Source: Gammaproteobacteria bacterium (GTDB taxonomy: Bacteria > Pseudomonadota > Gammaproteobacteria > Pseudomonadales > JADFDG01). Taken from it: a stretch of DNA of 64,000 nt. A program made the translations under genes and the position numbers. The notes under the pieces were generated by a model, which saw nothing but the letters and a program-made list of their open reading frames with translations, made no database searches and had not been told where the DNA came from. Of the stretch, positions 1,017 through 57,037 are shown piece by piece; the stretch's first letter is position 1; every line of letters starts with the position of its first letter. Location: NCBI GenBank assembly GCA_018262975.1, contig JADFDG010000002.1, positions 1 to 64,000 of the forward strand. The letters run 5' to 3'.

Positions 1017-1247
1017 GGGGTGGGCTCACGGGAAAATTGCCCGAAAGCGGATGCCTCCGGACGGAGCCATTTCCTGCTCCATTAGGCTTATACCCGTGGG
1101 GGGCCAACATCTTGAAAATGCTGGCTCCCGCTGCTCCACAACTTGCTACAAAGACGCCCCAAAACCGGCTAATATGGTCGCGACTTCAACGCCCGGCGTT
1201 GATCGGCAACTCATTGAAATCTCAGGCCAATTAGCAGGGCCTCGAGC

Positions 1248-1288
1248 AAATCCCCGTGTCGGTGGTTCGATTCCGCCTCCGGGCACCA
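1248..1288 (+). other. tRNA-Phe 3' fragment: genomic-island attachment site
   Basis: The last 41 nt of a tRNA-Phe gene, from the AAA of the anticodon loop to the encoded CCA, are present: anticodon-stem strand TCCCC, variable loop GTGTC, T-arm GGTGG-TTCGATT-CCGCC, then TCCGGGC and ACCA. E. coli tRNA-Phe has the same layout. No matching 5' half (GCCCGGA, D-arm) is found upstream, so this is not a complete tRNA. A 3' tRNA remnant followed by the host terminator is the classic distal att site left by a tyrosine integrase. The island would lie to the left, with the intact tRNA and the integrase outside the window. Confidence 0.75.
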
Positions 1289-1296
1289 TCTCGTGA

Positions 1297-1330
1297 AAAC
1301 GCCCCGCCAGGGAAACCCGGCGGGGCGTTT
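1297..1330 (+). terminator. Rho-independent terminator behind the tRNA-Phe fragment
   Basis: The arms AACGCCCCGCC and GGCGGGGCGTT form an 11-bp stem, followed by TTTCGTTT. It lies nine bases after the tRNA 3' end and probably terminated the original tRNA-Phe transcript. Confidence 0.8.
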
Positions 1331-1371
1331 TCGTTTCGGGGAACAGCAGCCCCGGGCTTCCCGGCAAGGCC

Positions 1372-1404
1372 AAAAAAAGAAGCCCCGCTTGGGCGGGGCT
1401 TCTT
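1372..1404 (-). terminator. Rho-independent terminator for the beta-helix protein gene
   Basis: Arms AAGAAGCCCCGC and GCGGGGCTTCTT form a 12-bp stem. On the minus strand it is followed by seven T residues, and it lies about 35 bases beyond the stop of the 1440-3767 gene. Confidence 0.8.
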
Positions 1405-1409
1405 GAGGG

Positions 1410-1434
1410 TCGGGGGCATGGCCCCCTCGCTACA
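1410..1434 (-). repeat. GTAG-headed REP element, single copy
   Basis: One unit of the dispersed family TGTAGvGAGGGGGCCATGC, read on the minus strand. Its inner hairpin is GGGGGC-CAT-GCCCCC. It sits between the stop of the beta-helix gene and its terminator. Confidence 0.75.
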
Positions 1435-1439
1435 GGGCT

Positions 1440-3767
1440 TCAGGCGGCGCGACGGCGACGCACCAGCAGGGCGGCCAGGGCGGCAGCCAGCAGGCCCGGC
1501 AGCATCGGGTCGAACGGCGCACGCGGGTTCACCGCGCAACCACCACCGTCGCTGCTGGGGGTGACCACCTTGATGGTCGCCGTGATGCTGTTGTCCGCGC
1601 TGTCCGCATCGACGACATCACCGGTAACCGTCGCCGTGGCGGTGTAGGTGCCGCTCGTGCTGCTGGTCACGGTGGCGGTGACGGTGCGGCTCGCATTCGC
1701 CAGCATCTCCGGGAAGGTGCAGCTGACCGTCGCTGCGCCAAAGGTGCAGGCGCCGGTGTCGCTGATGCCCGTAACGGTTACACCGTCGGGAATCGTGGCG
1801 GTGAGCACCACGTTCTTCGCGTCACCCGGCCCCTGGTTGAGGACGGTCAGCGCCACGTCGCCACTGCGGCCCGAGGTGAACAGATCACCCGTCGCCGTCA
1901 GGTTCAGGTCGGCGTTGGTCAGGCCGGTCACCGTCACCGAGGCCTCGTTGTTGCTCGGGAAAGGATCGACTGCCGCCGAGGTCACCGAGAAGGTCACCTC
2001 GTTGGCGCCGGCCGCATTGACCGCGACCACCAGCTCGACCACGTCGTAACTCTCCGCGGCAAGCGCACCCATCTCGCAGGTCACCACCTGCCCCACCGCG
2101 GAGCAGCTGCCCGCACCGTCGTTGAAGGTGCCGGACACGTAACCGAGGCCACCGGGCAACTGGGTGGACAGGATGGTGCTGTTGGCTGCGGTAGAGGCGT
2201 TGTTCATCACCACCACGTCGATGGTGCTCTCCTCGCCGACGGGCACGCGCGCCGGATCGGCAATGACCGAGTTGAGGCCGAGGTCGGCACGGTCGATGTA
2301 TACCTCGTAGGCACCTACGTCGCACACCTTGGTGCCCAGCACAAGCGCGTCGAACGGACGCACGAAGCCACGCTGGTCGGTGCTCGGGCAGCCCTCGTTC
2401 AGGCCATTGTCGATCGCCGGGCTGCCGGTGAGCAGCGCGTGGGTCCAGGTGCCGTTGAGTTCGTTGTCGTTGAGCGCGAGCGCACCGATCTTCACGTCGG
2501 CCCACATCTCGTCGCTGCCGGCGAGGTTCAGGTTACAGGTGGCATCGGTGGAAATGTTGCCGCCGTTGCTGACCACCGCCAGCGCACCGCTGCCCACCTT
2601 GCCGCAGTTGGCCGAGGCGCCATCACCGAGGTTGTAGGCGAGCAAGGTGTTCTTCAGCGTGACCGTACCGCCGACCAGGTTGATGCCAGCACCCTTGTTG
2701 CCGGAATCCTTGATGTTGTGCGCGATGGTGGTATTGGTGATCACCACCGAGGCGTTGGTGTTGATGCCGGCACCGGAATCGGTCACGTGGTTGCCGGAGA
2801 ACGTCGAGTTGGTGATGGTGAACGGGCTGGCCGACGGCGAGACCACGTTCACGCCGCCACCGCTGACGGCATCGTTGTTGCTGAAGGTCGTGCGCACGAT
2901 TTCCAGCTTGTTGCCACCGGCCATCTGGATGCCACCGCCATTCACGGCCAGGTTTCCGTCACCGGCCGCACCACCGATGGTGCTGTCGCTGACCGTGGTC
3001 GCCTGGCTGGCATAGATGGCGCCACCGTTACCATTCTTCTGGCCCTCCTCGGTACCGAGGATGGTCTGCGCATCGTTCTTGCTGAAAGTGGAATAGGAAA
3101 TGTTGAGGGCACCCTTGCTGTAGATGCCGCCGCCGCTGCCCTGGGTTTCCATCGTCAGCGGATCGCCATCCCACACCGCCTGGTTGTCGGTAATGGTGCT
3201 GTAGGTGATGTTGGTGACGGCGCCGTCGTTCGCATACAGCGCGCCACCGTTCATGTGCTGCGCCTGGCCCTTGGTCAGCACGATGTTGTTCAGGTCCAGG
3301 ACGACCGAGGCAGCGACCACGCCACTGTTGCTCTCCAGCAGGCGGTCACCGAAGCCCTCGCCACCGGCGATCGTGGCCTTGCTGGCCGTGTCTTCGTTGT
3401 CCTCGGTCTCGATGGTGAGATGCGACAACACGTCGAGGTCACCGGTGGCGGCAGCGTCTTCACCGGCGCCGGTCACCGACAGCGTATGCACGCTGCCGTT
3501 GGCAAGCACGATACGGTCATACTTCGGTGCATCCACCGTACCGTTGTCGTTGGTATTGGCATGCACGATGGCCGAACGCAGGTTGGCGCAGGTCACGGTG
3601 CCGGTGCCGCTGCAGGCGGTCGGTGCGGCATCGCCGGTGCCGCTGACGGTGATCGTTTCGCCCAGCGTGGGCTCCGGGGCTACATCGGCGACGGTCAGGA
3701 AGGGTTGCGCCAGCAGCGCTGCACCAACCACCGCACCGGCGGCGAGCTTGTAGGGGATATGCTTCAT
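1440..3767 (-). CDS. Exported beta-helix protein with choice-of-anchor Q, DUF11 repeats and JDVT-CTERM-like tag
   Basis: The start is ATG 3767 (MKHIPYKLAAG...), preceded by GAGGAA; the frame is open 11 codons further upstream but without a good site. The 775-residue product has a signal peptide (about residues 1-28) and an early segment with LRSAIVHAN, then Asn/Thr/Ser/Gly-rich turns typical of a right-handed beta-helix to about residue 440. A DQRGFVRP...CDVGAYE segment follows (choice-of-anchor Q type). Two DUF11-like beta-sandwich repeats come next. The C-terminus is GGGCAVNPRAPFDPMLPG, a hydrophobic helix and RRRRAA. This tag fits the JDVT-CTERM sorting signals, so the protein is probably processed and surface-anchored. 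No processing protease is in the window. The ligand is unknown. Confidence 0.8.
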   Translation of the reverse strand: MKHIPYKLAAGAVVGAALLAQPFLTVADVAPEPTLGETITVSGTGDAAPTACSGTGTVTCANLRSAIVHANTNDNGTVDAPKYDRIVLANGSVHTLSVTGAGEDAAATGDLDVLSHLTIETEDNEDTASKATIAGGEGFGDRLLESNSGVVAASVVLDLNNIVLTKGQAQHMNGGALYANDGAVTNITYSTITDNQAVWDGDPLTMETQGSGGGIYSKGALNISYSTFSKNDAQTILGTEEGQKNGNGGAIYASQATTVSDSTIGGAAGDGNLAVNGGGIQMAGGNKLEIVRTTFSNNDAVSGGGVNVVSPSASPFTITNSTFSGNHVTDSGAGINTNASVVITNTTIAHNIKDSGNKGAGINLVGGTVTLKNTLLAYNLGDGASANCGKVGSGALAVVSNGGNISTDATCNLNLAGSDEMWADVKIGALALNDNELNGTWTHALLTGSPAIDNGLNEGCPSTDQRGFVRPFDALVLGTKVCDVGAYEVYIDRADLGLNSVIADPARVPVGEESTIDVVVMNNASTAANSTILSTQLPGGLGYVSGTFNDGAGSCSAVGQVVTCEMGALAAESYDVVELVVAVNAAGANEVTFSVTSAAVDPFPSNNEASVTVTGLTNADLNLTATGDLFTSGRSGDVALTVLNQGPGDAKNVVLTATIPDGVTVTGISDTGACTFGAATVSCTFPEMLANASRTVTATVTSSTSGTYTATATVTGDVVDADSADNSITATIKVVTPSSDGGGCAVNPRAPFDPMLPGLLAAALAALLVRRRRAA

Positions 3768-4089
3768 TGCAGATTCCTCGAGGGCGTCCGCGGACGCCAT
3801 GGGTTATGTATGGACCCCGTCCCGCAGGCCGGGAGTCACTGGACTACGTATTCAACGTAACTCCACCCCCGAGCCACACGCACTGATGCATATCAATCGT
3901 GGCGCCCAATTTGCACTCCGCGCCTCAGCCAGCCCGGGCAGGCATGACGCAGGCCACTGAAAACATTGACGGATGTCATGGAGCCGGGCGTCGATCAAGC
4001 GCCGGCACACCTGCGGAGAACCGACACTCCCTGTCGCCATTCCCCCTATCATGGCGGCATCTTCTTCCCCGTCGCCCGGACACCCCCGC
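3768..4089. other. Divergent intergenic region between the beta-helix gene and rmuC
   Basis: These 322 nt separate two divergently read genes and must hold promoters for both. The clearest structure is a perfect 16-bp palindrome, GGCGTCCGCGGACGCC, at 3783-3798. It lies 16 nt upstream of the ATG of the beta-helix gene, so it falls in the probable leader of that mRNA as an operator or leader hairpin. No convincing -35/-10 pair, small gene or RNA was recognised in the rest. Confidence 0.4.
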
Positions 4090-5505
4090 ATGGACCAAGC
4101 GCTTCCCCTCGTGATCGGCATCGTCGTCGCCGCCCTGGTTGCCACCGTGGTGGCCGTGCTGCTGTCGCGCCGCCAAGCCCCGCCCGCCGACACCTCGCTG
4201 GCCGACAGCCTGCGCCAGCGCGCCGACCAGGAAGCAGCCCGCGCCGCCCGCCTGGAGGAACAGTTGCGCGAGGCCTCCGCGCAGGCGGCGCTGGCCGCCG
4301 AGCGCGCGCGACGCATCGGCGAGCTCGAGCAACAGGTGCGTGAACTGGGCGCCGCGCTGCAGGCCGCCCGCGACGCCCAGGCCGGCACCGAGAAGCGCGC
4401 CGGCGAGATCGCCGCGCGCGCCGCCGAGAAGGAACAGTCGCTGCAGGCGCAGATCGTGCAGCTGCAGGCCGCCGAACAGCGGCTGGCGAAGGAATTCGAG
4501 AACGTTGCCAACCGCATCTTCGCGCAGAAGCAGCAGCAGTTCGGCGAGCAGAGCAAGCAGAACCTCGATGCCCTGCTGGCGCCGTTCCGCGAGCAGATCG
4601 AGGGCTTCCGCAAGAAGGTCGAAGAGGTCTACGACGTCGAGCAGCGCGAGCGCCACGTGCTCAAGCACGAAATCGGCCTGCTCAAGGACCTCAACCAGCG
4701 CATCACCACCGAGGCCGCCAACCTCACCCGTGCGCTCAAGGGCGACAGCAAGGTGCAAGGCAACTGGGGCGAGATGATCCTCGAGAAGATCCTCGAGACC
4801 TCCGGCCTGCGCGAGGGCCACGAGTTCGAGCGCGAGGCCGTGCGCGACCACGAGGAAGGCAAGCGCCACCGCCCGGACGTGATCATCCACCTGCCGGAGG
4901 AAAAGGACGTCATCATCGACTCGAAGGTTTCGCTGGTGGACTGGGAGCGCTGCTCGTCGGCCACTGACGACGCCACCCGCGACGCGTCGCTGGATGCGCA
5001 CGTGGCGTCGCTGCGCAACCACGTGAAGCTGCTCGGCGACAAGAACTACCAGCAGCTGGCCGGCGTACGCTCGCTGGACTACGTGCTGATGTTCGTACCC
5101 ATCGAGGCCGCCTTCCACGCCGCCATCGCCCGTGACGAGAAGCTGGTGGACTACGCGCTGGAGAAGAACATCATGCTGGTCAGCCCCACCACGCTGCTGG
5201 TGGCGCTGCGCACCGTCTACAACCTGTGGCGCTACGAGTACCAGAACCGCAACGCACTGCAGATCTCGGAAGTGGCGGGCAAGATGTACGACAAGCTGGC
5301 GGCCTTCGTCGGCGACATGAACGACATCAAGTCCGCGCTCGACAAGGCCGACAAGGCCTGGGGCGCGGCGCAGAACAAGCTGGTGGACGGCAAGGGCAAC
5401 GTGATCCGCCAGGCCGAGAAGGTCATCGCGCTGGGCGTGAAGGCCAGCAAGAAGATCGACAAGGACTGGACCGACAAGGCATTGCCGGAAAGCGACGACG
5501 CCTGA
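4090..5505 (+). CDS. rmuC: DNA recombination protein RmuC
   Basis: The 471-residue product starts MDQALPLVIGIVVAAL. Upstream codons are open to 3973, but this ATG places the membrane helix at residues 5-24, as in RmuC. A long Ala/Glu/Gln/Arg coiled coil (about 35-190) precedes the conserved RmuC domain, recognisable by GNWGEMILEKILE, DVIIHLPEEKDVIIDSKVSL and FVPIEAAFHAA. The domain is related to restriction-endonuclease folds. In E. coli rmuC limits recombination at inverted repeats. The gene ends one base before the convergent PhnD-like gene. No operon partner is evident. Confidence 0.93.
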   Translation: MDQALPLVIGIVVAALVATVVAVLLSRRQAPPADTSLADSLRQRADQEAARAARLEEQLREASAQAALAAERARRIGELEQQVRELGAALQAARDAQAGTEKRAGEIAARAAEKEQSLQAQIVQLQAAEQRLAKEFENVANRIFAQKQQQFGEQSKQNLDALLAPFREQIEGFRKKVEEVYDVEQRERHVLKHEIGLLKDLNQRITTEAANLTRALKGDSKVQGNWGEMILEKILETSGLREGHEFEREAVRDHEEGKRHRPDVIIHLPEEKDVIIDSKVSLVDWERCSSATDDATRDASLDAHVASLRNHVKLLGDKNYQQLAGVRSLDYVLMFVPIEAAFHAAIARDEKLVDYALEKNIMLVSPTTLLVALRTVYNLWRYEYQNRNALQISEVAGKMYDKLAAFVGDMNDIKSALDKADKAWGAAQNKLVDGKGNVIRQAEKVIALGVKASKKIDKDWTDKALPESDDA

Positions 5506-5506
5506 C

Positions 5507-6601
5507 TCACTCCTTCTTGTCGGTGCACTCGGCGCGCGACGGCTCGACGCGGCAGCGGATCTTGCGCTGGATCGACAGCATCTCGGCGTCGTAGTAACCC
5601 TCGTCGCGCAGGCTGATGCGCGCCTGGCGCATCATCTCCTCGTACTTGGGCTTGTCGGCGTCCGGGATCGGCTCGAAGTACTTCCTCGGCACCGTGCCCT
5701 CGGCCATGCGGATGTACTTGAGCAGCAGGTCGAAGTTGGCGTGCACCGTCCAGCGCGCGGCAATGCCGATCTCCGGCGGAAAGTCCCTGGTGCGCACCAG
5801 CGCCTGCACGGTCGGCCAGACGATCGGGTAGTCGATGATCGCGCCGCGCGGCTCCAGGCCCTTCCACAATTCCAGCGCCTCGAACGCCGCCAGCGGCGCG
5901 GCGATGATGTCGACCGTGCCGTTGTTGAACTTGCCGGCGACGTTGGTGATTTCCACGCCCACCGGCGACGCACCGATCTGCGACACCATGCGTGCCTGCA
6001 CCGGGTCGTAGTCGAGCACCGCCACGCGCTTGCCCGCGGCCTTGGTCAGGCTGTTCACGCTGCGGTCGTTGGTAAACACGTAGGCCGGACCGATCGGCAC
6101 GGCGCCCAGCGACTCGAACTCGCCGGCGCGGATTTTGGGGGAAATCTTCGGACTCGCCAGCACCTCGGCCATCAGCCGGTGGTGCTGCTCGGTGGTGAGG
6201 CCGCCGATGGAATCGATGGTGCCGGCGAACTTGTTGAACAGGCGCGCGCGCAGGCCGGAGATGATCGCCGCCTCGCAGCGGCCGGCCTTGAAGTCCTCGG
6301 CGGCGATCTTCTCGCTGGTGTAGGTCTGCAACTGGAGGTCGTAGCCCCACTTGAGCGTTTCCAGGCGCACGTCCTTGGCGGCGTTGGACAGGTAACCGTG
6401 CGCGCCGATCGGGTCGAACACGCACACGCGTACCTTCCGGATTTCCTTCGGGCGCACCGCCGGCGGCGTCGGCAACTGGATGGCGCCGCGGATGGACTGC
6501 AGCTCCTGCTCGATCTGCTGGCCATGGGTGTCCGCGGCATGCAGTGGCGCACACAGCGCCACCGTCAACAGCACGATCAATGGGCGAAAGAATTCAGTCA
6601 T
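5507..6601 (-). CDS. PhnD-like periplasmic phosphonate/phosphate-type binding protein
   Basis: The 364-residue product begins with a signal peptide (MTEFFRPLIVLLTVALCAPLHAA). It then shows the two-lobed PhnD/SsuA-type binding fold, with RVCVFDPIGAHGYLSNAAKD, YTSEKIAAEDFKAGRCEAAIISG and FPPEIGIAARWTVHANFDLL as recognisable stretches. Binding proteins of this class normally feed an ABC transporter, but no permease or ATPase gene is adjacent: the neighbours are rmuC (convergent) and a divergent SLC13 transporter. It may serve a distant transporter or act as a ligand sensor. The substrate cannot be told from the sequence. Confidence 0.7.
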   Translation of the reverse strand: MTEFFRPLIVLLTVALCAPLHAADTHGQQIEQELQSIRGAIQLPTPPAVRPKEIRKVRVCVFDPIGAHGYLSNAAKDVRLETLKWGYDLQLQTYTSEKIAAEDFKAGRCEAAIISGLRARLFNKFAGTIDSIGGLTTEQHHRLMAEVLASPKISPKIRAGEFESLGAVPIGPAYVFTNDRSVNSLTKAAGKRVAVLDYDPVQARMVSQIGASPVGVEITNVAGKFNNGTVDIIAAPLAAFEALELWKGLEPRGAIIDYPIVWPTVQALVRTRDFPPEIGIAARWTVHANFDLLLKYIRMAEGTVPRKYFEPIPDADKPKYEEMMRQARISLRDEGYYDAEMLSIQRKIRCRVEPSRAECTDKKE

Positions 6602-6705
6602 GCAACCCTGCTGGTCTTGTTGTTGTCAGGGGTGGGCCCGGATGGTCGTCACGGCGACAGCCTGCACTTTACACTCCCCGGCTGGAATTGCCTCCCGGAG
6701 TCACC

Positions 6706-8031
6706 ATGCCCCTGCGCATAGCCATCGCCCTGCTCGTTGCCTGCAGTGCGTTCCTTGCCCCGGCCACGCCCGAGGTGCAGAAGGGATTGTTCATTTTCCT
6801 GCTCATAGGCGGGCTGTGGCTGTCCGAGGCCCTGCACCTCACGGCCACCGCCCTGCTGGTGCCGGTGCTGGCCGCCGCCACCGGCCTGCTCGCGCCGAAA
6901 CAGGCGCTGGCGGCGTTCGCCGACCCCATCATCGCGCTGTTCTTCGGCGGCTTCGTGCTGGCCAGCGCGCTGCGCCGCCACGGCCTGGACCGCCTGCTGG
7001 CCGCGCGGCTGGTGGCGCTGGCGCGCGGACGCCTGCTGCCGGCCGCCTTGCTGCTGTTCGCCGCCACTGCGTTCATTTCCATGTGGGTGAGCAACACCGC
7101 CACCGCGGCCATGATGCTGCCGCTGGCGCTGGGCCTGGTGGCCGGCATCGACCGCGACCGGGAGCGCAGCACCGTGCTGTTCGTGTTGCTGGGCGTGGGC
7201 TGGATGGCGAGCCTCGGCGGCATGGGTTCGCTGGTGGGCAGTCCGCCCAACGCGCTGGCCGCGGCGGCGGCCGGCTGGACGTTCAGCGACTGGTTCAGCG
7301 TGGGCTTGCCGGCCCTGTTGCTGCTGGCACCGCTGGCCACCGTCACGCTCTACCTGGTGCTGCGGCCGCGCATCGCCAGCCTGCGCGTTGATCCGCGCGC
7401 CCACGACACCGCGTTCACCTGGTCCGGCGGCGCCGTTGCCACGCTGGCGGTCTTCGCGCTGACGGTGGCGGCGTGGATGGCGAGCGAACCGCTGGGCAAG
7501 GCCATCGGCATCACCAGGGACCTGGACTCGATCATTGCCGTCAGCGCCGCCGTGTTGCTGCTTGCCACCGGCACGTTGCAGTGGAAGCAGGCGCAGGAAG
7601 ACACCGACTGGGGCGTGTTGCTGCTGTTCGGCGGCGGCCTGTGCCTGGGCGCGGTGCTCAAGGCGTCCGGTGCCAGCGACTGGCTGGCGCAGAGCGTGGT
7701 GGCGGAAGTGAGCGACTTGCCACGCATCGTGGTGCTGCTGGCGCTGGCGACGTTCGTGGTGCTGCTGTCGGAACTGGCGAGCAACACGGCGGCCGCCGCA
7801 TTGCTGCTACCGCTGATGATGCCGATGGCACCGGCACTGGGCATGGAACCGGGCGAAATGGCGGCATTCATCGCGCTCACCGCCAGTTGCGGCTTCATGC
7901 TGCCGGTGGCCACGCCACCGAATGCCATCGTGTTCGGCAGTGGCCTGGTGACGCAGCGGGAAATGATCCGCGCCGGCTTCTGGCTGGATATCGTCTGCGT
8001 GCTGGTGCTGGTCGGGCTCTTCAGCCTGTAG
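6706..8031 (+). CDS. SLC13/DASS-family sodium-anion symporter
   Basis: The 441-residue membrane protein has about 11-12 hydrophobic helices. It carries two family motif regions, WVSNTATAAMMLPLALGLV near residue 125 and SELASNTAAAALLLPL near 350, and GGMGSLVGSPPNALAAA / SCGFMLPVATPPNAIVFGSG as the paired SNT/TPPN-type substrate loops. Members move dicarboxylates, sulfate or tricarboxylates with sodium. The start is the ATG before MPLRIAIALLVAC, which places the first helix at the N-terminus. Its TAG stop lies inside the GTAG head of the following REP element. The substrate is not predictable here. Confidence 0.85.
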   Translation: MPLRIAIALLVACSAFLAPATPEVQKGLFIFLLIGGLWLSEALHLTATALLVPVLAAATGLLAPKQALAAFADPIIALFFGGFVLASALRRHGLDRLLAARLVALARGRLLPAALLLFAATAFISMWVSNTATAAMMLPLALGLVAGIDRDRERSTVLFVLLGVGWMASLGGMGSLVGSPPNALAAAAAGWTFSDWFSVGLPALLLLAPLATVTLYLVLRPRIASLRVDPRAHDTAFTWSGGAVATLAVFALTVAAWMASEPLGKAIGITRDLDSIIAVSAAVLLLATGTLQWKQAQEDTDWGVLLLFGGGLCLGAVLKASGASDWLAQSVVAEVSDLPRIVVLLALATFVVLLSELASNTAAAALLLPLMMPMAPALGMEPGEMAAFIALTASCGFMLPVATPPNAIVFGSGLVTQREMIRAGFWLDIVCVLVLVGLFSL

Positions 8032-8095
8032 AGAGGGGGCCATGCCCCCGATACGTGGAAAGCAAAAGCGTCGGGGGCATGGCCCCCTCTCTACA
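8027..8095. repeat. GTAG REP doublet (inverted pair)
   Basis: Two 25-nt REP units face each other around an 18-nt spacer: TGTAGAGAGGGGGCCATGC at the left and its reverse complement at the right. Each unit has its own GGGGGC-CAT-GCCCCC hairpin. The left GTAG provides the TAG stop of the SLC13 gene. The right end stops one base before the stop codon of the convergent 8097-8486 gene. Confidence 0.85.
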
Positions 8096-8096
8096 T

Positions 8097-8486
8097 TCAG
8101 GGCGTGGGCACCGTCGGCACCACTGCGCGCGCGGTGAGCGGGTTGCAGTTATCGATCACCACCGATCCCTCCAGCAGGCCGCTGCGCGCGTATTCGCGGA
8201 AGTGGCACTTGTTGGTGGCCGGGTCCCAGCTCTCCACCCACAGGTGGTCGTCCTTCCAGGTCGAACCCAGGTGCAACTGCCCTTCCACGCTGCTGATGGT
8301 CATCACGCCGCCATAGCGTTTCACGAACACCTGCTCGAAGTAGAAGTAGTAAGCCAGCGTGCCCACGGTGAGCACCACGAACGCCAGCACGGTGCCGAAC
8401 TTCCACACGCCGAAACGCACGCCGAAGGCCATGAAGAGGCCGATGGCCAGCGCGCACAGCAGGAACCAGTAAACGTAGGTGATCAT
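8097..8486 (-). CDS. Hypothetical membrane protein (129 aa)
   Basis: The start is MITYVYWFLLCAL at 8486; longer frames upstream run into cysQ and lack a site. Two transmembrane helices (about 4-22 and 29-48) precede a roughly 75-residue soluble domain with a beta-strand pattern (GGVMTISSVEGQLHLGS, DDHLWVESWDPATNKCHFREY). No family is recognised. It follows cysQ by 40 bases on the same strand and could be co-transcribed with nudE-cysQ. Confidence 0.65.
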   Translation of the reverse strand: MITYVYWFLLCALAIGLFMAFGVRFGVWKFGTVLAFVVLTVGTLAYYFYFEQVFVKRYGGVMTISSVEGQLHLGSTWKDDHLWVESWDPATNKCHFREYARSGLLEGSVVIDNCNPLTARAVVPTVPTP

Positions 8487-8526
8487 CGCGGTCTCCCGGG
8501 CAGGTATCTGGAAAATGATGGCGGGT

Positions 8527-9393
8527 TCAGGATGCCGTGTCCTCGAAGCCGGCCAGCCACTGCCAGCGCGACACATCATCGCCGATGGCATGGAAGTCCG
8601 GGTTGAGCAGCGACAATTTCGTGTTGCAGCGCAGCGGTGACAGGTCCGGACCGACCAGGTGGCCACCGGCCGCTTCCAGCACCGCCTGCGCCGCCGCGGT
8701 GTCCCATTCGCTGGTGGGGCCCAGGCGCGGATACAGGTCCGCCTTGCCCTCGGCCACCAGGCAGATCTTCAGCGAGCTGCCGCTGCTGGCGAGACTGTAC
8801 GGGCCGAACTCGCGCTCCAGGCGCGCCAGCAGGGCCGGCAGGCGCTCGCCGCCATGGCGCTTGCTGGCCACCACGGTGACCGGCTCGCCGCGCGCCTTCG
8901 CGTCGGCCAGCGTGCGCACGCGGATGGGCGTGCGGCCGGTGGCGTCCTCGCGGAACGCCTGCGGCGTCGCCCCAGCTGCATGCAGACCCGCATAAATGAC
9001 GCCGGTGACGGGCACGTACACCACGCCCAGCACCGGCACGCCCTGTTCGATCAGCGCGATGTTCACGGTGAACTCGCCGCTGCGCGCCACGAACTCCTTG
9101 GTGCCGTCCAGCGGATCGACCAGCCAGTAGCGCCTCCAGTGGCGACGCACTTCCCAGGCGGCGTGCTCGCCGGACTCCTCGGACAGCACCGGGATGCCCG
9201 GCGTGAGCACCGCCAGCGACTCCTCGATCACCCGGTGCGCGGCCAGGTCGGCCTCGGTCAGCGGCGACTCGTCGGCCTTGTCGGTGACCTGGAAGCCCTC
9301 CGGGCGGTTGTACACCACCAGGATGGCCTCGCCGGCCCGCTTCGCGATGCCGATGACCGGTGCCAGCAGGTGTTCCATGGACAACTCACTCAT
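8527..9393 (-). CDS. cysQ: 3'(2'),5'-bisphosphate nucleotidase CysQ
   Basis: The 288-residue enzyme is of the inositol monophosphatase/CysQ fold. It hydrolyses 3'-phosphoadenosine 5'-phosphate left over from sulfate assimilation and sulfotransfer. The metal-site motifs are present: ADESPLTEAD, LSEESGEH, WLVDPLDGTKEF and PTSEWDTAAAQAVLEAAGG. The start overlaps the stop of nudE by ATGA, which argues for translational coupling of two housecleaning hydrolases, an arrangement also found near cysQ in other gammaproteobacteria. Confidence 0.93.
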   Translation of the reverse strand: MSELSMEHLLAPVIGIAKRAGEAILVVYNRPEGFQVTDKADESPLTEADLAAHRVIEESLAVLTPGIPVLSEESGEHAAWEVRRHWRRYWLVDPLDGTKEFVARSGEFTVNIALIEQGVPVLGVVYVPVTGVIYAGLHAAGATPQAFREDATGRTPIRVRTLADAKARGEPVTVVASKRHGGERLPALLARLEREFGPYSLASSGSSLKICLVAEGKADLYPRLGPTSEWDTAAAQAVLEAAGGHLVGPDLSPLRCNTKLSLLNPDFHAIGDDVSRWQWLAGFEDTAS

Positions 9394-52142: not shown

Positions 52143-52937
52143 ATGCCGCCGTCCCGTCCGTTCTTCCTGCGCGGTATCCGGCGCGCCCTGCCCGCCGCCC
52201 TCGCCCTGCTGCTGCTCCCGGCCACCGCGCCAGCCGCCGGTACGCTGCGCGACTGCGACACGTGCCCACCGCTCACCGTGGTGCCCGCGGGCAGCGTCAC
52301 CGCCACCACGCAAGCGACGGGCCAGCCGCCAGTGACGCGCACGCTCGCCCTGGCCCGCCCGCTGGCCGTGGGCACCTACGAGGTGTCGCGCGGGGAATTC
52401 GCGCAGTTCGTGGCACGCACCGGCTACGAAGCAGGCGAGAGCTGGCAGGTGCAGGCGAGCGGCGACCCGCAGGAGGCCGTGACCGGCATCAGCCAGCGTG
52501 CGGTACGCGCCTACGTGCGCTGGCTGGCGCGATACACCGGCAAGGCCTACCGCCTGCCGACGCGCGACGAGTGGGAATATGCCGCGCGCGGCGGCACCAG
52601 CACGAATTTCTGGTGGGGCAACGAACGCGCAGACGGGTGCGGCAAGGAAGCCCTGCAACCGACATTCTTCAGCTTTCTGTACGGCGACACCTGCACGCAG
52701 ACCCGCGAACTGCCGGGCGCGCGCGGACACTACCCGGCCAATCCTTTCGGCCTGTACGACATGCTCGGCAACGCCGGCGAGTGGGTGGGCAATTGTGACG
52801 CGGCGAGCACGGATTGCGCTGCGCTGGTACCGCGCGGCGAACTGAACTGGGACACCGGGCACGCAGGCGAACAGCCGCTGTCATTTTCCTGGCAGGAATC
52901 CCGGGTGGGCTTTCGCGTGGTGAGGGACCTGCCATGA
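52143..52937 (+). CDS. Exported SUMF1/FGE-sulfatase-fold protein
   Basis: Starting at MPPSRPFFLRGIRRALPAALALLLLP, the 264-residue product has a signal peptide and the FGE-sulfatase domain: GTYEVSRGEFAQFVARTGY, YRLPTRDEWEYAARGG, NPFGLYDMLGNAGEWVGN and SRVGFRVVRD. Most bacterial members are not true formylglycine enzymes but ligand-binding or regulatory modules. Its stop shares ATGA with the next gene, a CHAT protease, so the two are translated together. Six cysteines suit a periplasmic, disulfide-bonded protein. Confidence 0.83.
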   Translation: MPPSRPFFLRGIRRALPAALALLLLPATAPAAGTLRDCDTCPPLTVVPAGSVTATTQATGQPPVTRTLALARPLAVGTYEVSRGEFAQFVARTGYEAGESWQVQASGDPQEAVTGISQRAVRAYVRWLARYTGKAYRLPTRDEWEYAARGGTSTNFWWGNERADGCGKEALQPTFFSFLYGDTCTQTRELPGARGHYPANPFGLYDMLGNAGEWVGNCDAASTDCAALVPRGELNWDTGHAGEQPLSFSWQESRVGFRVVRDLP

Positions 52938-55900
52938 AATGGCCACGTATTCTTGCGGCCCTGACCTGCGCGCTGCCGTGCTTGATGGCCGCACCCACCG
53001 CCCTCGCTGCCCCGCCAAAGGCCAGCCCGCTGCCGGTCGCCGAATTCCCGCACGGGCAGCCCACGGCCGCTCTCGACAGCGCGCTGCGCGGATTGCTGCG
53101 CGACGTCGTGGAGGTCATTCCCCTTCGCCGCGAACTGTACATACAGGACCAGCCACCCTGGAGCGCGCAACCAGCCCGGCTGGTGACCGCGTGCAGCCAG
53201 GACGAGAACTGCCAGTACGTACTGGCTCGCCAGATGGAAGTGCTGATGGCGGAGGCACAACGCCAGGCTTCGGCGCTGGCCACGGCAGGCAGCGGCGCGG
53301 AGTACCACGAGCAGCAGGGCGCCCTTGCCATCACCGCGATCGACCAGTTGTGCAACGCCGCCAGCGCCGCCCAGAAGTGGCTGTTCCATTTCTGCGGCAA
53401 TTCACTCGATACCAGCTACATCGCCGCGCGCATCTGGTTCAACATCGGCCGCGAGTCACTCGGACTCGAGCTGCAGCGCAACGCCGACGGCACGAACCAG
53501 CTCACCCGGGACTGGATCCATGGCGCGGACATGCCGGAAGACGAGAAAAAGCAGCGCCTGGCGGCCATTGACGCCGCACGTGAGCGCGGCATCCCCGCCT
53601 ACAACGAACTCGAAGCCCTGGACGACATCGACGGTGCGCGCATGCAACTGTTGTTCGCCCTTGGCAAGGTGGCGAACGAGAATCCCGATGATCCCGGGAA
53701 TGCCCTGTACATGGCACAACTGGCGCGCCTTTCTGCTCGCCTGAACGACCAGGCGAATGCGGTGACGCTGCTGCAGGCCATCGACGGCCTCGGACTGACG
53801 CCGGACCAGGCGAACGCCTGCGACCTGCGGCTCGCACGCGCGCGCGCCGACATCGCCCTCGCCCGCAGCGAGCACCGCACGCTGGACGCCCGGCCCTTGC
53901 TGGCGACCCTGCAGCAATCCCGTTGCGGCATGCTCACCGCCACCGAGGAAGCCGCGCTCGCTGCCCTGCACGGCAACGACCCGGCGCGCGCACTGGAAGC
54001 GCTGGAACTCACGCTCAATCACTGCCGCGATAACGGCCCCTGTTACAGCGCGCGCCACCAGCGACTGCTCGACCTGCAGGCCATCGCCGCGCGCGATGTC
54101 ACGCGCATGGCCAGGCAAGCGGAGGCTGGAATGGAACTGCTGGAGGCGCACGTGACTACCAGCCGCGAGCGCGACTACCTGTGGGCGCTGGCCCGCGGGC
54201 TCTCCGCGGCGGGCAAGTACGCTGAAAAGGGACGCGCCTTGCTTGGCAAGCTCGACGAAGTGATCGGCTATGGCCGCGCAGACATCATGGGCCAGGGCGC
54301 ACGGGGCTCCCACCAGGACCTGGGGCGCTACGATGAGCTCAAGCGCGACCTGGTACTGGCGCAGTGCGTCGCCGGCACCCCGGTATCACCCTCCGCCTTC
54401 GAAGTCCTGCGCGGCCAGCGCCTGTTCGAGCGGTTGCGTCGCCAGCGCTGGGCCCGCGAACTGGCCAGCGTCGATGTGCCGCAGGCGCGCGCCGAGCGCG
54501 ATGCCAACCTGGCAGCGCTGGCCGAGTATCGCCGGGGCATCCCGGCCGTCGCGGCGGAGGCAACGCCATACGAACGCGTGCTGTTCTCCCTGCTGGGCGA
54601 ATTGCTGGACGCCGCCGAGCAGGCCCTGAACGACAGGTACCTCGATGCCCAGGCCAATGCCGCCGACGAGAAAGACGGCCAGCACCGCGCCGCGTATGCC
54701 GGCTGGGGCCTGCGCAACCTCGCCTTCAAGGACACCCTTGCCACCGGTGGCTGGCTCGGCGACGCGGACGTGCTTGCCACCGATGAAGCCTACCTGTCCT
54801 TCCTGCGCGTGCCCGGCGGATTTCTCGGTGCGCTGGTGAGCAACCGCAGGTCCCCGGATTTCTTCGGTGATCCATTCGCCGATCCGAACGCACCACCGGT
54901 CAACCATTTCATCCCCCTGTCCGCCGCCCAGGAGCGAACCCTGGCACTGTGGCGTGACCTGCTGCGCACCGGCGGCGGCGTCACGCGCGGCAAGCGTGGC
55001 GTGGTACGCAGCGACGCCGAGCATGACGTGATCGTCGATGCCGGCGGCGTCGTCCTGCAAGGCGTGCCGGTATGGCGCCTGGTCGATGGCAGCTACGCGG
55101 CGCTGGACAGCGCGCCGGCGGGTGCCGTGCGCGTGCAGAAGCCCTCGGAAATCAGTGACAGCCTGTTTGCCTTGCTGCTCGAGCCGTTCCGCCGCCACTT
55201 CCAGGATCACGCGCGCCTCATCGTCAGCCCGGACGGCGCACTGGCCCTGTTACCGTTCGAGACGCTCACGCGCAACGGTGTTCCGGCTACGGAGATCGTC
55301 GACATCGGCTACGTGCAGTCGCTGGCGATCTACGACGAACTGCGCAACCGCAAGCCGAAGGACCTTGACTCGCGCGACGCTGCACGCAAGCCGTCGCCCA
55401 CCACGCGGCTGCTCACCGTGGCCGATCCCGTGTACGTGGAAGGCGTCGACCCGCTCGAGTGGCAACCGCTGCCGGGCACCCGGCTGGAATCCAGCCGGCT
55501 GGCTTCGCTGTTCCCGGCCAGCACCCGCCTGCTTGGCGCCGATGCCGACCGCAAGCGGCTGCTTGACCTCAACGCACGGCAGTCGCTGCGCTCCTACGGC
55601 CTGTTGCACTTCGCTACCCACGGCTACACCGACGCGCAACGCAGCGCGCTGGTGCTGAGCAACGCCGCCGGTTCCCGCGACAGTTATTTCACCGACGAGG
55701 ACGTCGCAACCCTCGACCTCGCCTCCTCGCTGGCGCTGCTCTCCGCCTGCGATACCGGCGTCGGGCGCGTGGTGAGCGGCGACGGCGTCGTCGGCCTGCC
55801 CTACGCGTTCTTCATGGCCGGCAACCGCAACACCCTGATGTCGCTGTGGCCCGTGGATGACGCCGGCACGGCGGCCTTCATCCCTGCCTACGTCGAGCGG

Positions 55901-56056
55901 TTGCGCGGCGGCGATGACCTGGTCAGCGCGCTCAACGACACCAAGCGGGCCTTCGCGCGCGGCGAGTACGGCGAGGCGCTGCGCGACCCGCGCATCTGGA
56001 GCGCATTCGTACTCTATGGCGTCGCCGAGCCGCTGCCCGCCGCGCTGACGCACTGA
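52934..56056 (+). CDS. Exported CHAT-domain protease with large helical N-terminal region
   Basis: The 1,040-residue protein begins with a signal peptide (MKWPRILAALTCALPCLMAAPTALA). About 700 residues of Ala/Leu/Arg-rich helices (TPR-like repeats) follow, then a C-terminal CHAT domain: YGLLHFATHGYTDAQR gives the catalytic His896, and LALLSACDTGVG gives Cys939 with VSGDGVVGLPYAFFMAGN after it. CHAT is a caspase-like cysteine peptidase fold, usually cytoplasmic in defence and cell-death systems; a signal peptide directs this one to the periplasm. It overlaps the SUMF1-like gene, and the 5'-nucleotidase gene follows after 15 bases. Confidence 0.85.
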   Translation: MKWPRILAALTCALPCLMAAPTALAAPPKASPLPVAEFPHGQPTAALDSALRGLLRDVVEVIPLRRELYIQDQPPWSAQPARLVTACSQDENCQYVLARQMEVLMAEAQRQASALATAGSGAEYHEQQGALAITAIDQLCNAASAAQKWLFHFCGNSLDTSYIAARIWFNIGRESLGLELQRNADGTNQLTRDWIHGADMPEDEKKQRLAAIDAARERGIPAYNELEALDDIDGARMQLLFALGKVANENPDDPGNALYMAQLARLSARLNDQANAVTLLQAIDGLGLTPDQANACDLRLARARADIALARSEHRTLDARPLLATLQQSRCGMLTATEEAALAALHGNDPARALEALELTLNHCRDNGPCYSARHQRLLDLQAIAARDVTRMARQAEAGMELLEAHVTTSRERDYLWALARGLSAAGKYAEKGRALLGKLDEVIGYGRADIMGQGARGSHQDLGRYDELKRDLVLAQCVAGTPVSPSAFEVLRGQRLFERLRRQRWARELASVDVPQARAERDANLAALAEYRRGIPAVAAEATPYERVLFSLLGELLDAAEQALNDRYLDAQANAADEKDGQHRAAYAGWGLRNLAFKDTLATGGWLGDADVLATDEAYLSFLRVPGGFLGALVSNRRSPDFFGDPFADPNAPPVNHFIPLSAAQERTLALWRDLLRTGGGVTRGKRGVVRSDAEHDVIVDAGGVVLQGVPVWRLVDGSYAALDSAPAGAVRVQKPSEISDSLFALLLEPFRRHFQDHARLIVSPDGALALLPFETLTRNGVPATEIVDIGYVQSLAIYDELRNRKPKDLDSRDAARKPSPTTRLLTVADPVYVEGVDPLEWQPLPGTRLESSRLASLFPASTRLLGADADRKRLLDLNARQSLRSYGLLHFATHGYTDAQRSALVLSNAAGSRDSYFTDEDVATLDLASSLALLSACDTGVGRVVSGDGVVGLPYAFFMAGNRNTLMSLWPVDDAGTAAFIPAYVERLRGGDDLVSALNDTKRAFARGEYGEALRDPRIWSAFVLYGVAEPLPAALTH

Positions 56057-56071
56057 TACCCGGAAACCACC

Positions 56072-57037
56072 ATGCCCATCGACCTCTCCGACACGCTCGT
56101 CATCGGCATCTCCGCCACCGCGTTGTTCGACCTGCGCGAGGCGCATGCCTTCTACGAGGCTCGCCTGGCGGAAAGCCCCGCGACCGCGGTGGCGGACTAC
56201 CGTGACTGGATGCGTGCCCGCGAAACCCGCGAACTCGCCGACGGCACCGGCATGCCGCTGGTGCGCGCCCTGCTGGCGCTCAACCGCTTCGGGTTGGCGG
56301 ATGCAGCACCGCTGGTGGAGGTGGTGGTCATGTCACGCAACAGCGCGGAAACCGGCGTGCAGGTATTCAACAACATCCGGCGCCTCGGTCTGCCGGTGTC
56401 ACGCCACGCGTTCACCGGCGGCGCGTCGGTGGTTCCGTATCTCGAAGCCTTTGACGTCGACCTGTTCCTCACCACCAGCGCCGAGGATGCGCAGCGAGTG
56501 ATCGACGAAGGCCGCTGCGCCGTGGCGGTGCTGCGCGCGCCGCCCGCCGAGTCACCGGCGCCACCGGACGACCAGGTGCGCATCGCCTTCGACGGCGATG
56601 CCGTGCTGTTCGATGACAGCAGCGAACTGGTCTACAAGACCCGCGGACTCGACGCGTTCCACCGCCACGAAAACGACAAGCGCGACGAGCCGCTGCCCGA
56701 AGGGCCGTACGCCGTACTGCTGCACAAGCTCGCCCGCCTGCAGGAACGCCTGGCGGCGCAGCAGCCGGCCGGCCACGCGTCGCCGGTGCGCATCGCCATC
56801 GTCACCGCGCGCAGCGCACCTGCCGAGTTGCGGGTGATCAACACGCTGCGCCACTGGGGTGTGGAAGTCGATGAGGTGTTCTTCCTCGGCGGCGTTGCGA
56901 AGGATCGCGTGCTGAAGGCGCTGCGCCCGCACATCTTCTTCGACGACCAGGACGTGCACCTCGACGCTGCGGCCGGCGTGGTGTCGGCCGGCAAAGTGCC
57001 GTGGCGCAGCGACTCCCGCCTAAGACAAAAGGACTAG
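56072..57037 (+). CDS. 5'-nucleotidase (NT5C1-like, HAD fold)
   Basis: The 321-residue cytoplasmic protein starts MPIDLSDTLVIGISATALFDL. It shows the 5'-nucleotidase pattern, with VVVMSRNSAETGVQVFNNI, RIAFDGDAVLFDDSSELVYK (HAD nucleophile region), RIAIVTARSAPAELRVI and PHIFFDDQDVHL. The family dephosphorylates nucleoside monophosphates, typically AMP or IMP. It follows the CHAT gene closely and may be read from the same transcript, although its substrate has no known link to a CHAT protease. Confidence 0.83.
   Translation: MPIDLSDTLVIGISATALFDLREAHAFYEARLAESPATAVADYRDWMRARETRELADGTGMPLVRALLALNRFGLADAAPLVEVVVMSRNSAETGVQVFNNIRRLGLPVSRHAFTGGASVVPYLEAFDVDLFLTTSAEDAQRVIDEGRCAVAVLRAPPAESPAPPDDQVRIAFDGDAVLFDDSSELVYKTRGLDAFHRHENDKRDEPLPEGPYAVLLHKLARLQERLAAQQPAGHASPVRIAIVTARSAPAELRVINTLRHWGVEVDEVFFLGGVAKDRVLKALRPHIFFDDQDVHLDAAAGVVSAGKVPWRSDSRLRQKD

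Follow-up and report, generated by a model that had tools for sequence, protein, structure and literature searches.

Within a 64,000-base window of a gammaproteobacterial draft genome (G000:C22:1-64000; 3.3 Mb in 29 contigs), two overlapping genes encode a protein of the formylglycine-generating enzyme (FGE) family, P0004, and a putative CHAT cysteine protease, P0003 (Table 1). With about even confidence, we favor the reading that the CHAT protease is exported and that the FGE-fold protein, translated together with it, is a non-catalytic regulatory subunit. The pair is judged real because its diverged counterpart elsewhere in the genome also retains the ATGA overlap, and a homologous CHAT protein from a contig titled uncultured Methylobacillus carries what resembles an FGE remnant. 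Under the favored reading, the overlapping genes would encode one exported unit. The helical CHAT protease, likely stabilized by disulfides, would fold in the periplasm or be secreted further, while the FGE/C-type-lectin-fold protein, having lost its FGE center, would be exported and made in step with it. The FGE-like protein would then probably serve as a binding or regulatory subunit that recognizes a ligand or substrate and either switches the protease or directs it; the outcome may be defense, an envelope stress response or turnover. A physical complex, ligand sensing and control of cleavage may all be part of its role; the sensor reading stems from the analogy with C-lectin-fold sensors and from the exchange with C14 caspases described below.

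The putative CHAT protease and its FGE-like partner

P0003 matches the CHAT family well above threshold (E 1.8e-52; 179 bits against a cut-off of 24). An earlier sequence-only reading of this DNA had placed the coordinates and frames of the two genes and of a 5'-nucleotidase gene behind them, ATGA overlap included, exactly, and its claim that His896 and Cys939 are intact holds as well: both residues are where it put them and are invariant across four homologues. For comparison, we surveyed 80 CHAT loci (L061-L140) from 71 genomes, with each genome contributing one listed place and nine further places added; a CHAT match is present in 82 of 249 genomes, and 11 of the 82, the window's own included, fell outside the sample. 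The His/Cys dyad is complete in 81 of the 92 survey CHAT stretches aligned, the remainder having gaps at both columns (10) or at the Cys column only (1). P0003 is a putative CHAT cysteine protease. The same early reading described a large helical, sensor-like region in the protein. A model with a mean predicted local distance difference test score (pLDDT) of 37.8 shows matching secondary structure, so helicity is weakly supported, and Pfam places no TPR match in the N-terminal region.

Both N-termini of the pair look by eye like Sec signal peptides, that of P0004 covering approximately the first 32 residues. Eight cysteines before the CHAT domain of P0003 (87, 93, 140, 154, 296, 331, 364 and 370) are invariant in four of four homologues, and in three homologues cysteine makes up 1.27, 1.11 and 1.12% of the pre-CHAT region, where the median of 78 CHAT proteins from the survey is 0.22%. 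Behind their signal sequences, P0004 has six cysteines and P0005, the FGE-like protein of the second pair, has four. Paired cysteines fit an oxidizing compartment, where they may form disulfide bonds, and together the signal sequences and the eight conserved cysteines support export of the pair as its predicted fate.

Export is nevertheless not what sets this protease apart, contrary to the suggestion that it would be unusual for a CHAT protein. A signal-like start was found in 53 of 71 survey CHAT frames (at least 400 residues, complete 5' end, ATG within 60 residues) and in 74 of the 252 remaining frames (300 residues or longer) at the same loci, a control that includes truly exported proteins. 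Signal-like N-termini are likewise present on each of the five CHAT proteins that the window's genome encodes, that of P0003 judged by eye. As such starts are common among the CHAT proteins of the phylum, export is not the novel feature. Bacterial caspase-like proteases have mostly been described as cytoplasmic death or defense effectors; with most sampled CHAT proteins starting signal-like, a large exported class may await a function.

P0004 belongs to the FGE-sulfatase family (PF03781; E 2.7e-29, 103 bits against a cut-off of 23.3), although the match spans only model positions 5-201 of 255. In FGE, a CxxxxC cysteine pair is catalytic. We aligned P0004 and its own-genome relatives with 16 foreign FGE-family proteins (18 were fetched and two dropped as no frame was found). 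The CxxxxC pair is absent from P0004, P0005 and the third FGE-family protein of the genome, and it is present in nine and missing in seven of the 16 foreign proteins, so members of this Pfam family often do without the pair. In P0004 and P0005 most of the conserved C-terminal core is missing as well, and its RGGSW region, found in most other aligned members, is eroded differently in each. With the catalytic pair and most of this core gone, P0004 is not a formylglycine-generating enzyme. A working FGE beside the protease was accordingly rejected; the genome does encode two sulfatase-family genes.

A second pair and more distant homologues

The genome holds five CHAT matches and three FGE-family matches, and two of the three FGE genes directly precede CHAT genes: the window pair on contig C22 and a second pair on contig C1. 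The four-base ATGA overlap is shared by the two pairs despite considerable divergence. Their FGE proteins are 37% identical (BLASTP) and their CHAT proteins 39-40% overall, identity being 30% ahead of the CHAT domain and 64% inside it. P0005 carries about 150 extra N-terminal residues (L012:44-540) with no Pfam match.

A third relative, L006, is encoded on the contig titled uncultured Methylobacillus metagenome-assembled genome and was found by a contig search that reaches close relatives only. Behind its signal sequence, the L006 CHAT protein has a stretch resembling the FGE N-terminus, and the score of this stretch against P0004 and against P0005 was reached by none of 1,000 shuffles in each case. 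An FGE domain was not found in L006, where only 588 bases of contig precede the CHAT gene. We read the stretch as a probable fused FGE remnant, left by a deletion that may have joined both genes. The linkage proposed from the window sequence thus recurs, as a second pair in the same genome and as a probable fused remnant in L006. The L006 CHAT gene is also adjoined by a patatin-like gene and an opposite-strand C14 caspase gene with a signal-like start (L006:4702-9205).

The family itself is rare. Profile A3, built on the N-terminal part of the CHAT protein, found members in one of 390 genomes of the order and one of 398 of the phylum, the window's genome both times, and in two of 399 relatives of the L006 genome, namely L006's own and G1138. 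In G1138 (L161), the CHAT gene lies 75 bases behind a C14 caspase gene with a signal-like start, and no FGE gene stands beside it. In a tree of 78 CHAT domains, from which the own-genome C23 protein was left out because its aligned stretches were shorter than 200 residues, the two FGE-paired domains are sisters (100/96), joined next by L006 (100/92) and then by G1138 (100/98). Some deep joins carry long-branch warnings, and the end branches of the four homologues measure 0.35-0.52.

What precedes CHAT genes elsewhere

By profile and by motif, an FGE-family protein was found at none of the 80 survey CHAT loci. The profile recovers 16 of 16 foreign FGE proteins as well as the three own-genome proteins used to build it; at least 1.5 kb of upstream sequence was available for 64 of 83 CHAT frames, and the other 19 could conceal a neighbor. 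FGE linkage therefore seems peculiar to this rare CHAT family. C14 caspases occur there as nine frames at eight loci. Five of the nine lie directly upstream of a CHAT gene on the same strand, as compared with 16 among the 285 remaining long frames (Fisher P 1.2e-4). In the window's own genome, a C14 caspase gene overlaps a CHAT gene by GTGA at L023 (G000:C23:256000-272000, approximately 5382-8833), and both products have signal-like starts, making this another kind of overlapping caspase-like pair in the genome. Given the C14 caspases at L161 and L023 and the pseudo-FGE in the present family, the position before a CHAT gene can hold either.

These arrangements raise a wider and tentative proposal, which we hold to be possible rather than probable: an undescribed envelope module in which an exported CHAT protease with either a co-translated pseudo-FGE/C-lectin receptor or an exported C14 caspase would constitute a two-protein proteolytic switch outside the cytoplasm. 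The small, duplicated, cysteine-rich pair with its pseudo-enzyme may provide an entry point to the envelope roles of exported caspase-like proteases.

Weighing the regulatory reading against alternatives

Several observations count against an exported protease with a regulatory FGE-fold subunit. Intact FGE linkage was seen in one genome only, and neither L006, where 588 bases of upstream contig were available, nor L161 has an FGE gene beside its CHAT gene. The gene overlap also fits two proteins that are needed together yet do not bind. The signal peptides were judged by a simple home-made rule and by eye. No PDB chain matches the CHAT protein by sequence, and the structure models were too poor to use: that of P0004 alone has a mean pLDDT of 37.6 and that of P0003 with the L006 homologue 37.8, so neither (mean pLDDT below 38) supports a complex. 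As for the C14 caspases, only four of nine frames start signal-like (two of the five upstream ones, one of those five being cut by the locus end), and a simple pattern finds both catalytic motifs in only four of nine. An exported, active C14 partner is thus not the general case.

The strongest rival is that the FGE-like protein acts as an inhibitor or folding helper devoted to the exported protease, holding it harmless until its activity is called for. We consider this unlikely, though it would sit well with a missing FGE catalytic center and with an FGE-like protein that in both pairs is made first, from a gene overlapping that of the protease by ATGA. The relatives are harder to accommodate: among adjoining genes, there is no FGE gene beside CHAT in L006 or L161, and at L161 a C14 caspase occurs instead; a private inhibitor is therefore not invariably an immediate neighbor.

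Alternatively, the two genes could encode unrelated exported proteins of an ordinary operon, overlapping without any functional tie. That no FGE was found at the 80 other CHAT loci speaks for this, but the order and overlap are kept in the diverged second pair and L006 carries a probable fused FGE-like remnant; we consider this reading improbable.

It is highly improbable, in our judgment, that the FGE-like protein works as an exported PvdO-type oxidase modifying a substrate that the CHAT protein also processes. PvdO, which is periplasmic, is the closest solved relative of P0004 by sequence (5hha, E 5.9e-19) and also its best NCBIfam match (NF051459, dihydropyoverdine dehydrogenase), at 89.4 bits far below the 500-bit cut-off. 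Against an active oxidase, the RGGSW region of the C-terminal core has eroded in P0004 and P0005, and in each differently.

The earlier suggestion of the 5'-nucleotidase as a third component did not survive comparison. The enzyme is a clear member of PF06189 (E 1.2e-108) and matches the PADLOC candidate PDC-S08 (E 7.2e-121), a name found in one paper of the literature searched, as far as titles and abstract starts reveal. Of 110 relatives, 78 have PF06189, and just five of the 78 match it at more than one place, whereas the CHAT protein is matched in five of 115, own genome included. As a query, the window nucleotidase found only itself in the 80 survey loci, in L006 and in the loci from its own genome, the second pair's locus among them, and nothing in L161. 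Being widespread and missing beside the three homologues searched, it gives the PDC-S08 label little meaning here. A three-gene abortive or anti-phage system with the nucleotidase depleting nucleotides, which the 15-base gap to the CHAT stop, the PDC-S08 match and a simple scan that placed no terminator-like site between the genes would allow, was rejected as barely credible given this wide distribution and lack of linkage to other CHAT loci.

Genomic setting

The scanned neighbors of the pair are ordinary chromosomal genes, including those for an N-carbamoylputrescine amidase, a ZIP metal transporter, an HlyD-type protein and a YbjN match just below cut-off. Guanine-plus-cytosine content is even at 64-71% across 46-62 kb, so composition marks no island. 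Of the PADLOC 2023 families, none matches the FGE-like protein and none the CHAT protein; the nucleotidase alone is matched. A phage search returned no match, and among viral contigs 17 pattern stretches were found, none of which was confirmed. Plasmid records match in 89 cases, but no single place covers 80% of the protein, and among the 25 listed the matches are confined to residues 694-1030 of the CHAT protein. In the two best plasmid neighborhoods no FGE is annotated, the gene table being incomplete.

Table 1. Positions of the pair, its parts and related features (window coordinates unless a locus is named).
Feature	Position	Strand	Remarks
FGE-like gene (P0004, 264 residues)	52143..52937	+	ATG 52143, TGA 52937; PF03781
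ATGA stop/start overlap of FGE-like and CHAT genes	52934..52937	+	also in second pair, L012:1216-1219
CHAT gene (P0003, 1,040 residues), signal sequence	52934..56056	+	ATG 52934; PF12770
N-terminal region of CHAT protein, residues 27-740	53012..55153	+	probably helical; eight conserved cysteines
CHAT domain, residues 742-1029	55157..56020	+	PF12770
Catalytic His896 (LHFATHG)	55619..55621	+	invariant in four homologues
Catalytic Cys939 (LLSAC)	55748..55750	+	invariant in four homologues
5'-nucleotidase, PF06189, PADLOC candidate PDC-S08	56072..57037	+	neighbor, judged outside the system
Second pair, contig C1 (L012)	FGE (P0005) 44-1219, CHAT (P0001) 1216-4308		same gene order

Relation to known systems

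A literature search by titles and abstract starts, mostly of open-access papers, turned up no account of an FGE-like protein that is paired with an exported CHAT protease. Two lines of published work come close: metacaspase-FGE fusions (PMC3501461) and proposed FGE-type C-lectin sensors (PMC10907252). In the former survey, 33 of 671 prokaryotic metacaspases are fused to an FGE-sulfatase domain, and these likewise join a caspase-like protease to the FGE fold. They are, however, C14 proteins of a single chain, while here the CHAT and FGE-like proteins are separate and each has a signal sequence.

Also close are exported CHAT proteins of Pseudomonadota (for example L021 and L022 of the window's genome), which resemble P0003 in their signal-like start, long N-terminal region and C-terminal CHAT domain with His and Cys. 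Some exported proteins of this kind have TPR repeats, whereas P0003 has no TPR match, is cysteine-rich and is overlapped by a pseudo-FGE gene. Another parallel is TPR-CHAT/Csx29 of Craspase, in which, according to PMC9729208, a helical region and a CHAT protease come under the control of a partner, as may be the case here. Craspase is RNA-guided with Cas7-11, in contrast to a pair with signal sequences on both proteins, and no Cas family was found among the seven window proteins scanned.

For the FGE-like protein, PMC10907252 treats the FGE domain as a subtype of the C-lectin fold and as a proposed sensor in conflict systems with protease effectors; it also has some FGE/C-lectin targets of diversity-generating retroelements predicted to be periplasmic or secreted. 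No STAND or MoxR partner was seen among the scanned neighbors of the window pair. No reverse transcriptase gene stands beside the FGE-like genes, the sole match in the genome being on contig C2 and the pairs on C22 and C1. At that C2 site (L030, G000:C2 near 112502), an 822-residue reverse transcriptase frame adjoins an Eco57I-type methylase frame, possibly as a defense locus.

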